Below the pieces are notes generated by a model. That model ran no database searches. It was not told where the DNA came from and saw only the letters and a list, made by a program, of their open reading frames with translations. 39,864 nt of DNA from Nitrososphaerales archaeon (GTDB taxonomy: Archaea > Thermoproteota > Nitrososphaeria > Nitrososphaerales > JACPRH01). Shown here piece after piece: positions 231 through 24,650 of this stretch. The translations under genes were made by a program, and so were the position numbers. The stretch covers positions 1-39,864 of the forward strand of contig JASLOE010000006.1 in the NCBI GenBank assembly GCA_030745655.1. Direction: 5' to 3'. The stretch's first letter is position 1, and each line of letters begins with the position of its first letter.

Positions 231-569
231 TTGAAAAAAATTGAAGCAATTATTAGAAGTGAAAAGCTGAGTGAGATTAGGAAAGCTCTTCTTGAAGCGG
301 ATATTCTAGGAATAACCGTCTATGAAGTTCGAGGAAAAGGGCATCAAAAAGGTCTAGAACTTCAGTTTAGAGGGAGGCAGTATAATGTTGATTTATTGCC
401 TAAAACTAAAATTGAGTTGATGGTTAGCGACAAAGATGTGGAAAAAGTTGTGGATCTAGTGAAAAAGATTGCTCATACAGGGAATATTGGAGATGGTAAG
501 ATAATGATTATTCCATTAGAAAACATAATCAGGATAAGAACAGGCGAGAGTGGCGACAAAGCTATCTAG
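231..569 (+). CDS. glnK: Nitrogen regulatory protein P-II (GlnK family)
   Basis: This 112-residue protein has the normal P-II length. It begins MKKIEAIIRSEKL and carries the T-loop (RGKGHQKG...QFRGRQYNVDLLPKTKIE) and the B-loop TGNIGDGKIMI that binds ATP/ADP. The tyrosine in RGRQY aligns with the uridylylation Tyr51 of enteric P-II, while the position of Tyr46 is Phe. P-II trimers sense ATP/ADP and 2-oxoglutarate and bind Amt trimers through the T-loop. The start is TTG at 231, which gives the canonical N-terminus; no ATG is in reach. It is probably co-transcribed with the upstream amt gene, 9 nt away. Whether the tyrosine is modified in this organism cannot be seen, since no GlnD-like gene is in the window. 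Confidence 0.95.
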   Translation: MKKIEAIIRSEKLSEIRKALLEADILGITVYEVRGKGHQKGLELQFRGRQYNVDLLPKTKIELMVSDKDVEKVVDLVKKIAHTGNIGDGKIMIIPLENIIRIRTGESGDKAI

Positions 570-597
570 GAGCAATAGTTTGTCTAAATGTTTTCAA

Positions 598-680
598 GTG
601 GGATTGTGGCGGCTTGGACAGGCTGGTCAATATTTTCCTCACGGGCGTTGGAGCCACATGCCTTCGCCCAACTCCCCCAC
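598..680 (-). ncRNA. Candidate structured RNA in a GC-rich intergenic island
   Basis: The 201-nt gap between glnK and rtcA holds a GC-rich block in otherwise AT-rich DNA. Its ends are complementary (GTGGGG at 680-675 with TCCCAC at 603-598 in the minus reading). Inside are TGTGGC (658-653) with GCCACA (610-605), and two mutually exclusive helices: GGGCG with CGCCC, and GTTGG with CCAAC. The minus strand is preferred because an A/T-rich TATA-like element (CTTTTATTTTT, about 711-701) lies about 25 nt upstream of base 680, the archaeal TATA-to-start distance. I do not recognise it as a tRNA, 5S, SRP or RNase P RNA. On the plus strand it could instead be a structured 3' UTR of the amt-glnK transcript. 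The remaining sequence, 681-770, is AT-rich with no gene. Confidence 0.45.
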
Positions 681-770
681 ATTTAAATTTTTGAATCCTT
701 AAAAATAAAAGTTCTTTGTTTCAATAAAACCAATTCACAATATTTTATACTTCTTATTTAGGTAATATCA

Positions 771-1835
771 TTATTCCATTGGTCCATCTGTTGAATCCGA
801 TTTTATTGTGATTGTGGCGGCTCCATTGTTATGTATTTCGAAATAGTATTTACGTTCAGTTAGAACACTTGCAACATGAAGAGATGTACGTATATGTTGA
901 GTTAATGATGATACTTTGAATTTTGATTCACCAGTGGCAAGAAAAAGAGGTGTGACCAGCATATCTCCTAGGTGCATATCAATCGGTGCTTCTGACAAAT
1001 ATTCTTTCAAGAATAGTTGGGCAACCTGTTCACCAACATTCTCAGCAGGCTTTCCTTGCTCACCTATATTATCAGCACCCAAGAAAGAGCCTTTATTGAC
1101 AGAGTAGAGCGTAATTGAGGAACCGGATGCAATAGCATCTATTACAGTCGTAACAACATTATTGCACTTCATATTTTGTGAATATAGGCTTTCAAGAGCT
1201 GCCCTCATCTGTCTTTCAGCAACATTTTTAGGAAGATTTGAGCAGATACTTATACAGGATAGTGGAGAATTAATTCTGGAAACTAATTGTAGTGGTTTTA
1301 ATTTCTTTAAAGGTTTGATGTTTGCTTTTACAATTCCTCCTCCTCGAGGGAAATATCCTCTTTTACCTACTTCTATTGTACAGTCCATACCCAAGAATTT
1401 AAAAGCTGGTAACACAACGAATTGGAAGTAATCAATAGTGGGACTCCACTTAACATCGGTTCCACCTTTAATTTCAAGATCACAACCAACCCCATTTAGA
1501 CTAGCAGCAGGTAAAGCAGCAATTAAAATAAGCGGAATACTGCCAGCGGTTCCAACGTCAAATTTTATTGATGAACGATGTTTCTGTCCGGGTTTAAAGG
1601 TAATCCAATTAGCTCCTACCTGGAGGTTCTGAACTTCAGCATCACACATTTCTGCAAGAAGTTTAACAGCTGTGACATGTTGAGGCCTTAACCCTGTATT
1701 TTTTCGTTTAGCTCTAATATTCTTAATTTTTATTGGCTTATTCAGAACCACAGAGAGTGTAATAGATGTACGAAGGATTTGACCACCCCCTTCTCCAAAC
1801 GATCCATCAATCTCAAAGAAAAGAGACTTTTTCAA
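771..1835 (-). CDS. rtcA: RNA 3'-terminal phosphate cyclase
   Basis: RtcA converts a 3'-phosphate at an RNA end to a 2',3'-cyclic phosphate through an adenylylated histidine and ATP. The 354-residue length matches the family. The N-terminus has the signature DGSFGEGGGQILRTS, followed by a typical N1RPHVTAVKLL segment (LRPQHVTAVKLLAE). The C-terminal HLGDMLVTPLFLA contains the histidine that aligns with the adenylylated active-site His (HLxDQ in bacteria). The initiation codon is TTG at 1835-1833, the only start that preserves the EIDGSFGEGG signature near the N-terminus. NadM lies 53 nt upstream in the same direction, so the two may share a transcript. ORFs listed on the opposite strand are shadows. 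A role in RNA end repair is known for the family; its substrate here is not known. Confidence 0.93.
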   Translation of the reverse strand: MKKSLFFEIDGSFGEGGGQILRTSITLSVVLNKPIKIKNIRAKRKNTGLRPQHVTAVKLLAEMCDAEVQNLQVGANWITFKPGQKHRSSIKFDVGTAGSIPLILIAALPAASLNGVGCDLEIKGGTDVKWSPTIDYFQFVVLPAFKFLGMDCTIEVGKRGYFPRGGGIVKANIKPLKKLKPLQLVSRINSPLSCISICSNLPKNVAERQMRAALESLYSQNMKCNNVVTTVIDAIASGSSITLYSVNKGSFLGADNIGEQGKPAENVGEQVAQLFLKEYLSEAPIDMHLGDMLVTPLFLATGESKFKVSSLTQHIRTSLHVASVLTERKYYFEIHNNGAATITIKSDSTDGPME

Positions 1836-6254: not shown

Positions 6255-6917
6255 TTGGCAATTCATCTCCTCGATATCTACCGAAGTAGTAATATTGGCA
6301 TCTTTTTGAAAAGTAATGAAAATCATCTATTAGTTCCACGCGGATTGGCCAAAACCAAAATAGAGAAACTGGCTGAATATCTTAGCGTCGAATCGATAGA
6401 AATTTCAATTGGAGGGTTTAGATTGCTTGGACCATTAATTGCAATGAACAATAATGGGATTTTGGTTTCAAAATTGGCAGATGAAAACGAGATTACACTT
6501 TTGAAAAAAGTAACAGGTCTTCCTGTGGAAAGATTACAATCCAAATACACATCTGTAGGAAACCTCATTTCTGCCAATGATAGAGGAGTGATTGCTTCAA
6601 CATTATTGAAAGACGTAAAAAATCAAATTGCGGATGTGCTAAACGTCCCCATTGAATTCCTTACAATAGCTTCTTTCGACAATGTCGGTGCTCTTATGGT
6701 TTCTGGGAATGTTGGTTCAGCAATTCATCCCCAAGCATCAGATGGAGAGATAACCAAAGCTACCAAGGCATTAAAAGTAGCTGTTGAACCCATAACTATC
6801 AACCGAGGATTACCATTTATCGCTTCAGGGATTATCCTATCCAAAACAAAAGCAGTTGTTGGAAGCCTTACAACTGGGCCTGAACTCATAATGTTAAGCA
6901 GGATTTTCAAGCTATGA
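6255..6917 (+). CDS. eif6: Translation initiation factor 6 (aIF6)
   Basis: aIF6 binds the large ribosomal subunit at L14 and prevents premature joining to the small subunit. The protein has the five-fold repeated fold, visible as recurring segments: NIGIFLKSNENHLLVP, GILVSKLADENEI, GNLISANDRGVIAS and GALMVSGNVGSAIHPQAS. The ORF track begins at an ATG at 6225. I place the start at TTG 6255 (MAIHLLDIYRSSNIG) because that matches the family N-terminus and has GGAG 8 nt upstream; the ten extra residues are unlike the family. Length from this start is 220 residues, normal for aIF6. Prefoldin alpha follows 49 nt later. No L31e gene was seen in front, and no L18a/LX gene behind. Confidence 0.93.
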   Translation: MAIHLLDIYRSSNIGIFLKSNENHLLVPRGLAKTKIEKLAEYLSVESIEISIGGFRLLGPLIAMNNNGILVSKLADENEITLLKKVTGLPVERLQSKYTSVGNLISANDRGVIASTLLKDVKNQIADVLNVPIEFLTIASFDNVGALMVSGNVGSAIHPQASDGEITKATKALKVAVEPITINRGLPFIASGIILSKTKAVVGSLTTGPELIMLSRIFKL

Positions 6918-9617: not shown

Positions 9618-10424
9618 CTAGAGTTTAATAATCTCTAATCCAGCTTCTTCTACAAGAGATATAACTCGATCTCTTTCTTTTATACCCTTCCAATCCAAGA
9701 TTGCATACGAAACTTTCTCTATAGACCTAGTTATCATTTGATTAAGGATAGATTTGTCTAGATTGATTATAGCATATTTTGGCATTATTGCACCTAAAGC
9801 AAAATTTGATTCAGTGATAAGTTTAGTGAATTTTTCAGAGTAATGATTTCCTCCAAAACCAATAGAAATCTTGTCTGAAGAACATCCTTTTTCAACAGTA
9901 GTCATAACTGCTTCACACACAGTTTCGATTGCATCACTATCTTGCCAATGTTCTTTAGAGGAACCTATTTCTACGAAGAGCACTGGTTTAGAGAAAGATG
10001 TGGGCCCATGATGCATTGGCTCTGTCACTATTGAATATCTAAGAACGTTACTCTTTAGATTCTTTAATTGTTTAAGATATTCTTGATGAAGACTAGGATA
10101 AGTAATTGCCAATTTAGATGGAGCGCCACCAAATTGAGCAACTTTTGAGAAATTACCGGGAAAATGCGCAGTTAAACTCGGTATTCCACTTTCTGATTTA
10201 TGATGAGATAGAAAGATGTATGCAGTGGGATCTAAGATTGGTTCATCTAGAAACAAAAGATTTTTAGAGGTTTTTATTAGTTGTATTCTGCCTTTTTTAT
10301 AAATTGGGTAACCTTCGAATCTTTGATTACTCTCTTTAAAACCATATGTTTCGATTAGATGTTGAGCCATGTTTCTGCTGGCAATGTCTTGGTTAGACGA
10401 CACCAAAATGAAATGGTCATACAT
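9618..10424 (-). CDS. dtdA: D-aminoacyl-tRNA deacylase (archaeal/plant GEK1 type)
   Basis: DtdA hydrolyses D-amino acids wrongly attached to tRNA, recycling the tRNA. The 268-residue protein shows the family signatures TAHFPGNF (THxxGN-like), MHHGPTSF, VEIGSSKEHW and the zinc-site region IGFGGNHYSEKFTKL. Sequence between residues 60 and 240 is recognisable throughout. It starts at ATG 10424, and the divergent secE starts 101 nt away, so the shared gap should hold two promoters. The disrupted ogt gene lies 19 nt downstream in the same direction, so both were probably one transcript. Function is well established for the family in archaea and plants. Confidence 0.92.
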   Translation of the reverse strand: MYDHFILVSSNQDIASRNMAQHLIETYGFKESNQRFEGYPIYKKGRIQLIKTSKNLLFLDEPILDPTAYIFLSHHKSESGIPSLTAHFPGNFSKVAQFGGAPSKLAITYPSLHQEYLKQLKNLKSNVLRYSIVTEPMHHGPTSFSKPVLFVEIGSSKEHWQDSDAIETVCEAVMTTVEKGCSSDKISIGFGGNHYSEKFTKLITESNFALGAIMPKYAIINLDKSILNQMITRSIEKVSYAILDWKGIKERDRVISLVEEAGLEIIKL

Positions 10425-24566: not shown

Positions 24567-24650
24567 AGCCTCGAGTGGGGATTGAACCCACGATCTCCTG
24601 CTTACTCGATGGTTTACGAGGCAAGCGCTTTACCACTAAGCTATCGAGGC
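24567..24650 (-). tRNA. tRNA-Thr(CGT) with a 12-nt intron
   Basis: The minus strand folds into a complete cloverleaf: acceptor GCCTCGA/TCGAGGC, D-stem GCTT/AAGC, anticodon stem CTTGC/GCAGG, T-arm GTGGG-TTCAATC-CCCAC, discriminator T. The anticodon loop holds 19 nt. Removing 12 nt (24603-24614) at the canonical site 37/38 leaves CTCGTAA, anticodon CGT. In the precursor CTCG pairs with CGAG as the 4-bp central helix, with two TAA bulges, each cut after the second base. The loop beyond is too short for an inner helix, so this is the relaxed bulge-helix-loop form. G1-C72, C2-G71 and U73 agree with threonine identity elements reported in archaea. CCA is not encoded. Confidence 0.93.

Follow-up and report, generated by a model that had tools for sequence, protein, structure and literature searches.

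A Dispersed Family of Structured Intergenic Elements, Candidate Small RNA Genes, in One Family of Nitrososphaerales

The GC-Rich Block between glnK and rtcA

Regulatory RNA in thaumarchaea is, to our knowledge, little known. In the stretch of DNA analyzed here (39,864 nt of a Nitrososphaerales archaeon, hereafter the window), the 201-nt spacer between glnK and rtcA contains a block at positions 598–680 that raises the question of whether it is a structured RNA, a part of the adjacent nitrogen operon, a mobile DNA or a chance sequence. A reading made from the letters alone had described a GC-rich island in AT-rich surroundings located between these two genes, and both points were borne out: G+C reaches 60% over 601–680 versus 16–44% in the flanking sequence, and both genes were confirmed by Pfam matches (glnK, 231–569, plus strand, PF00543; rtcA, 771–1835, minus strand, PF01137, convergent to the element). 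The folding energy of the single sequence, relative to shuffled sequence, indicated a stability at the level of chance on both strands (z of −0.03 for plus and −0.98 for minus), so composition and single-sequence folding alone make no case, and the evidence for the predicted structure derives only from relatives.

The window holds two minor features of its own. Positions 599–614 of the element recur as a 16-nt direct repeat at 807–822, in the 3′ end of rtcA (15 of 16 positions; 13 exact, GATTGTGGCGGCT), where a plus-strand RNA of the element could pair with the rtcA mRNA; this repeat is probably due to chance, because the matching letters are missing from the rtcA of another contig of the same bin (G000:C44). 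The two tRNA predictors also disagree twice: Infernal reports a tRNA at 24567–24650 (minus strand) where ARAGORN finds none, and ARAGORN reports a tRNA-Ser at 6574–6656 (plus strand), within a 230-aa ORF, where Infernal finds none.

Copies and Carrier Genomes

The block is one member of a previously undescribed family of dispersed repeats of ~85 nt, with 2–17 copies per genome. By DNA searches of the genome of origin (G000) and 60 relatives, we identified one copy here, 2 in G001, 12 in G002, 6 in G003, 14 in G004, and none elsewhere. A covariance model (R1) built from an alignment of 20 copies (A1) retrieved a total of 41, distributed as 2, 2, 14, 6, and 17 in G000 to G004, respectively, and a second model (R2) was built from an alignment of 41 copies (A2). 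In the window, the element core (model positions 1–86) corresponds to 591–675 on the plus strand (R1, 90.9 bits, E = 6.0e−18; R2, 86.3 bits). Altogether, the family comprises 41 strong copies (E ≤ 1e−3) and four weak ones in five genomes, all apparently assembled from metagenomes and belonging to a single Nitrososphaerales family.

Searches with R2 covered 400 genomes from the order, 300 from the class, and 398 from the phylum and yielded nothing beyond the known copies; outside the five carriers, no copy was found among ~390 other genomes of the order. Divergent members could escape R2 at this scale, where each genome contributes only a few scored candidates; applied to fewer genomes, the model did bring up additional weak matches. 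When 84,980 species genomes were scanned for the pattern, hits came from only three Nitrososphaerota MAGs, ETNP2_MAG_84, NC_groundwater_674, and XS84Bin3, whose matched contigs correspond to G001, G004, and G003, respectively.

Covariation and the Predicted Fold

On the plus strand, the 41 copies support a topology in which helix P2 is nested inside P1, a third helix, P3, lies behind P1, and the P3 loop is complementary to the P1–P2 joint. In the window, P1 would be formed by GTGGGA (598–603) and CCTCAC (637–642), the innermost pair (A603–C637) being unformed in this copy; three of its six pairs show changes on both sides, from G-C to A-U and C-G. P2 (CGGCT, 610–614, with GGCTG, 621–625) is paired in 99% of cells and shows both-side changes in two pairs. 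P3 (GGGCGTTGG, 643–651, with CCTTCGCCC, 661–669) has both-side changes in four of nine pairs and shows several pair types; in the genus of the window it carries an internal mismatch (T648/T649 opposite T664/T663). The single-stranded joint from P2 back to P1 (GTCAATATTTT, 626–636; A2 columns 40–51) is highly conserved, and a single-stranded C-rich tail (AACTCCCCCAC, 670–680) marks approximately where conservation among relatives stops.

Across the 41 copies, pairing holds in 96.0% of cells, versus 36–46% when partners are slid, and both-side changes affect 10 of 25 pairs, in 43 cells versus 15.6 in shuffled alignments (none of 500 shuffles reaches this value). The helices of the element are thus backed by the covariation that characterizes structured non-coding RNAs, and these compensatory changes support predicted helices P1, P2, and P3. 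The pairing of TGTGG in the P1–P2 joint (605–609) with CCACA (654–658) in the P3 loop (652–660, AGCCACATG), present in 98.5% of cells, would form a pseudoknot; it rests mostly on nearly invariant pairs, one of which shows a change on both sides (G-C, G-U, once A-U). For A1, RNAalifold favors a longer P2 instead of this pairing, so that pseudoknot and extension may compete. In many copies, an additional variable hairpin, P0, lies directly 5′ of P1; it is significant by itself in 15 of the 41 copies, too few for a helix common to every copy, and was seen neither in the window copy nor in two close copies of the same genus. We consider it highly probable that the family represents a conserved nucleic-acid structure.

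Covariation among relatives had been named beforehand, in the sequence-only reading, as a test of its structured RNA, and it is present in the 41 copies. One of the three pairings proposed there, GGGCG/CGCCC, coincides with covarying pairs of P3 (643–647/665–669). The other two were not conserved: the outer pairing of GTGGG (598–602) with CCCAC (676–680) is replaced in relatives by that of GTGGGG with CCCCAC (637–642 here), the 3′ CCCAC being absent outside the genus of the window, and the alternative GTTGG/CCAAC fails because most copies have GCAGG instead of GTTGG. The proposed minus-strand start with its TATA-like element also found no support. A single P2 pair reads G-U in 40 of 41 copies; all pairs together comprise 98 G-U versus 23 A-C cells (58 versus 23 without that conserved P2 column), a bias that favors the plus strand as the putative RNA. 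The element is unlikely to be coding, because length changes between copies are not multiples of three.

The weak matches can be placed with respect to this fold. An orthologous pair in the two genomes of the window genus (G001:C22 and G000:C11, the latter retrieved by an unfiltered search) has P1 recoded to AATGG/CCATT, and each member lies ~70 nt past the stop codon of a pyrroloquinoline quinone (PQQ)-dehydrogenase gene. Two others resemble diverged copies, G001:C44 with P3 and the pseudoknot complement intact, and G002:C13 with P3 intact. A match in a genome of another family (G027) was rejected as due to chance, as it sits within a protein-coding frame.

Gene Neighborhoods and Transcription Signals

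Approximately 25 of the 45 copies are located 70–265 nt past a gene for a PQQ dehydrogenase, with which they share the strand. The adjacent genes are paralogous and encode secreted PQQ-dependent dehydrogenases of ~700–760 aa (PF01011); one study places such enzymes among the most expressed genes of heterotrophic marine thaumarchaea (PMC7300363). A hairpin followed by a T-run (GACGATCC...GGATCGTC...TTTT) lies between the PQQ gene and the element, which thus seems to stand beyond the terminator of that gene. A recognizable element was found within 420 nt of 20 of the 52 PQQ ORFs examined, so that over half are without one.

The PQQ genes show features of their own. G002 and G004 (2.2–2.3 Mb) each encode ~30 PQQ-dehydrogenase paralogs (59 and 56 domain matches, respectively; loci L070–L134), many of which are followed by the conserved terminator-like hairpin, and a promoter-like GTCTTACCCCACCTTATATC block is common to several spacers. 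At one locus (L074, G002:C17), a decayed copy (TAGCGGGGGATTGTGTCGGCTTAGATG...) missed by the model lies ~60–160 nt past the PQQ ORF starting at 10072 and keeps a conserved upstream TTGCTCCTCAAACGC block.

Other copies have different neighbors. Four adjoin a divergent MptE-like gene and have a deoxyhypusine synthase gene downstream, which in G001 starts ~100 nt after the element; the divergent orientation of the upstream gene would fit transcription of these copies on their own. Two orthologous copies sit after a tRNA, with an HSP20 gene nearby; here a BRE/TATA-like GAGATAAACTTATATTTA precedes the element and has been kept within a spacer that has otherwise drifted, which would likewise suit independent transcription. 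Over all copies, no common TATA box, promoter profile, or T-run terminator was clear, and the genes downstream vary in identity, strand, and distance. Where loci of G002 and G004 can be paired, the element is 80–98% identical versus 28–68% for the next 40 nt downstream, although in two pairs this downstream sequence may not be homologous; the upstream sequence is often conserved too.

We also examined complementarity to the 5′ ends of PQQ mRNAs. The duplex test gave no enrichment, the best duplexes being weaker than those of control genes, which is consistent with a lower G+C, and antisense action on these 5′ ends was rejected as a candidate function.

Known RNA Classes

Searches of Rfam 15 (all 4227 families) with the window and several copies gave no match over the element at the gathering cut-off. 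The best sub-threshold match, to the H/ACA snoRNA SNORA12 (16.6 bits versus a cut-off of 45; E = 0.27 in a 221-nt search), reflects some local sequence likeness and a stem with ACA-like letters behind it, and a second copy gave no SNORA12 match. Whereas the H/ACA plan has a 3′ ACA box, the element has a P1–P2 stem, P3, and a putative loop–joint pseudoknot that includes the ACA letters within the P3 loop; an H/ACA guide RNA was thus rejected. A tRNA or tRNA-like identity was likewise discarded, as neither ARAGORN nor RF00005 matched over the element.

No description of the element was found in the literature by title or abstract, and we know of no multi-copy pseudoknotted family of such a kind among archaeal intergenic sRNAs. 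The family is thus a new one of a known broad kind. Orphan structured-RNA motifs and multi-copy sRNAs of bacteria and archaea, such as those of PMC2864571, are likewise intergenic, GC-rich, and covarying, and were of unknown function at discovery; the present element differs from such motifs in Rfam, none of which it matches, by its restriction to one thaumarchaeal family and its link to PQQ-dehydrogenase genes. A possible working likeness, as small RNAs between genes, is to Methanosarcina sRNA162 (PMC3510493) and Haloferax sRNA132 (PMC6560208).

Nature of the Element

The reading that we favor, and consider reasonably probable, is that of a lineage-specific, multi-copy family of small structured RNA genes that bind a protein partner. 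It relies on the 41 copies and their covariation, the four weak copies, the G-U strand bias, the constraint on the elements of G002 and G004, the signs of independent transcription at some loci, the non-coding pattern of length changes, and the lack of an Rfam match. The new small RNA of the sequence-only reading fits best here, with covariation in its favor, and is retained without its strand and without two of its three pairings. In the proposed scheme, P1 enclosing P2, followed by a P3 whose loop pairs back, would give a compact pseudoknotted module with unpaired nucleotides that hardly vary (those of the GUCA-AUAUUUU joint and the P3 loop). A stable RNA of ~85–120 nt would be produced; some loci would use a promoter of their own, and others perhaps read-through past PQQ-dehydrogenase genes and glnK. 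The conserved module may bind a common protein, and the variable parts (loop 2, and P0 in many copies) may be copy-specific. A gene-regulatory or RNP-scaffold role is our guess. Several observations go against RNA genes: no shared TATA box or T-run stands out, the duplex test showed no sign of targeting of PQQ 5′ ends, the pseudoknot is mostly invariant and yields to a P2 extension in the RNAalifold prediction, and only five genomes carry the family. More tentatively, the family may be a novel class of archaeal small RNA, pseudoknotted and with up to 17 loci per genome, that works with the expanded set of ~30 PQQ-dependent dehydrogenases in a common regulatory or RNP system without known counterpart in other organisms. 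For such questions, the present data supply a specified fold, an alignment tested for covariation, 45 candidate loci, and the PQQ-dehydrogenase link.

A less probable alternative, though one with real weight, is a mobile DNA of miniature size (MITE- or REP-like), the hairpins of which would be ends recognized by a transposase or recombinase, and which would have inserted beside terminator hairpins where it follows PQQ genes. REP/RAYT and IS200/IS605-derived elements are short, dispersed, intergenic hairpins, often located behind genes. The family shares this placement and dispersal, at 2–17 copies per genome; related glnK–rtcA and PQQ-gene sites lack it; and the relatedness of elements does not follow that of the adjacent PQQ proteins (Mantel r = −0.06, p = 0.62, n = 20). 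This last result indicates that copies move or convert independently, and led us to reject that they were passengers of PQQ gene duplication. Against mobility, compensatory changes and the G-U bias extend across old copies, individual copies are kept at orthologous sites under constraint, and the entire unit is conserved rather than its ends alone; the element is also longer than the REP/RAYT and IS200/IS605 hairpins, with a putative internal pseudoknot and covariation throughout. No recurrent transposase is linked to it among the clustered ORFs of the flanks examined. No target-site duplications were established. Comparison with the element-free sites gave inexact insertion boundaries. Retro-mobility was rejected, as the five genomes contain no reverse transcriptase (RVT_1), as was a viral, phage, or plasmid origin, those collections containing no match.

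Somewhat less likely still is a 3′ element acting in cis on the upstream gene, serving in stability, 3′-end processing, or exosome blocking of highly expressed mRNAs (those of PQQ dehydrogenases, and amt–glnK here). The ~25 same-strand copies behind PQQ genes agree with it, as does the window copy, which starts ~22–29 nt past the glnK stop codon on the same strand. However, the terminator-like hairpin and T-run separate PQQ gene and element, most PQQ ORFs examined are without one, and at the MptE/deoxyhypusine synthase loci the upstream gene is on the opposite strand.

It is highly improbable that the element serves the downstream gene as a riboswitch or 5′ leader: the compact, putatively pseudoknotted fold and the position ahead of deoxyhypusine synthase in G001 would suit such a role, but the copies show no constant placement upstream of co-directional related genes, the downstream gene even being convergent in the window, so that the context largely refutes this reading. 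A functionless GC-rich sequence, to which the chance-level folding energy of the single sequence would conform, has next to no probability and is refuted by 41 homologous copies with covariation.

Origin of the Window Copy

The window copy and its closest counterpart, the MptE/deoxyhypusine synthase copy of G001:C6, share a unit of 109 nt (587–695, plus strand, 93% identity), beyond which their sequences are unrelated, and the glnK–rtcA loci of G000:C44 (same bin) and G001:C55 are devoid of the element. The window copy is thus most simply viewed as a moved duplicate, which probably arose from an MptE/deoxyhypusine synthase copy kept by relatives. A deoxyhypusine synthase of that kind has no close match in the window genome (best identity 27%). 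That the element might be a 3′ part of the nitrogen operon, as first proposed for the plus strand, does not agree with these two element-free loci, nor with the unrelated genes beside other copies (PQQ dehydrogenase, MptE/deoxyhypusine synthase, tRNA/HSP20, and others); as far as sequence comparison goes, nothing ties the window copy to nitrogen control.

The G000 bin contains two rtcA–glnK loci, that of the window (C62) and that of C44 (L107), with RtcA proteins 78% identical, which suggests that the operons are paralogs or that the bin includes a second strain. G001 likewise has two MptE/deoxyhypusine synthase loci, the synthases of which are 89% identical.
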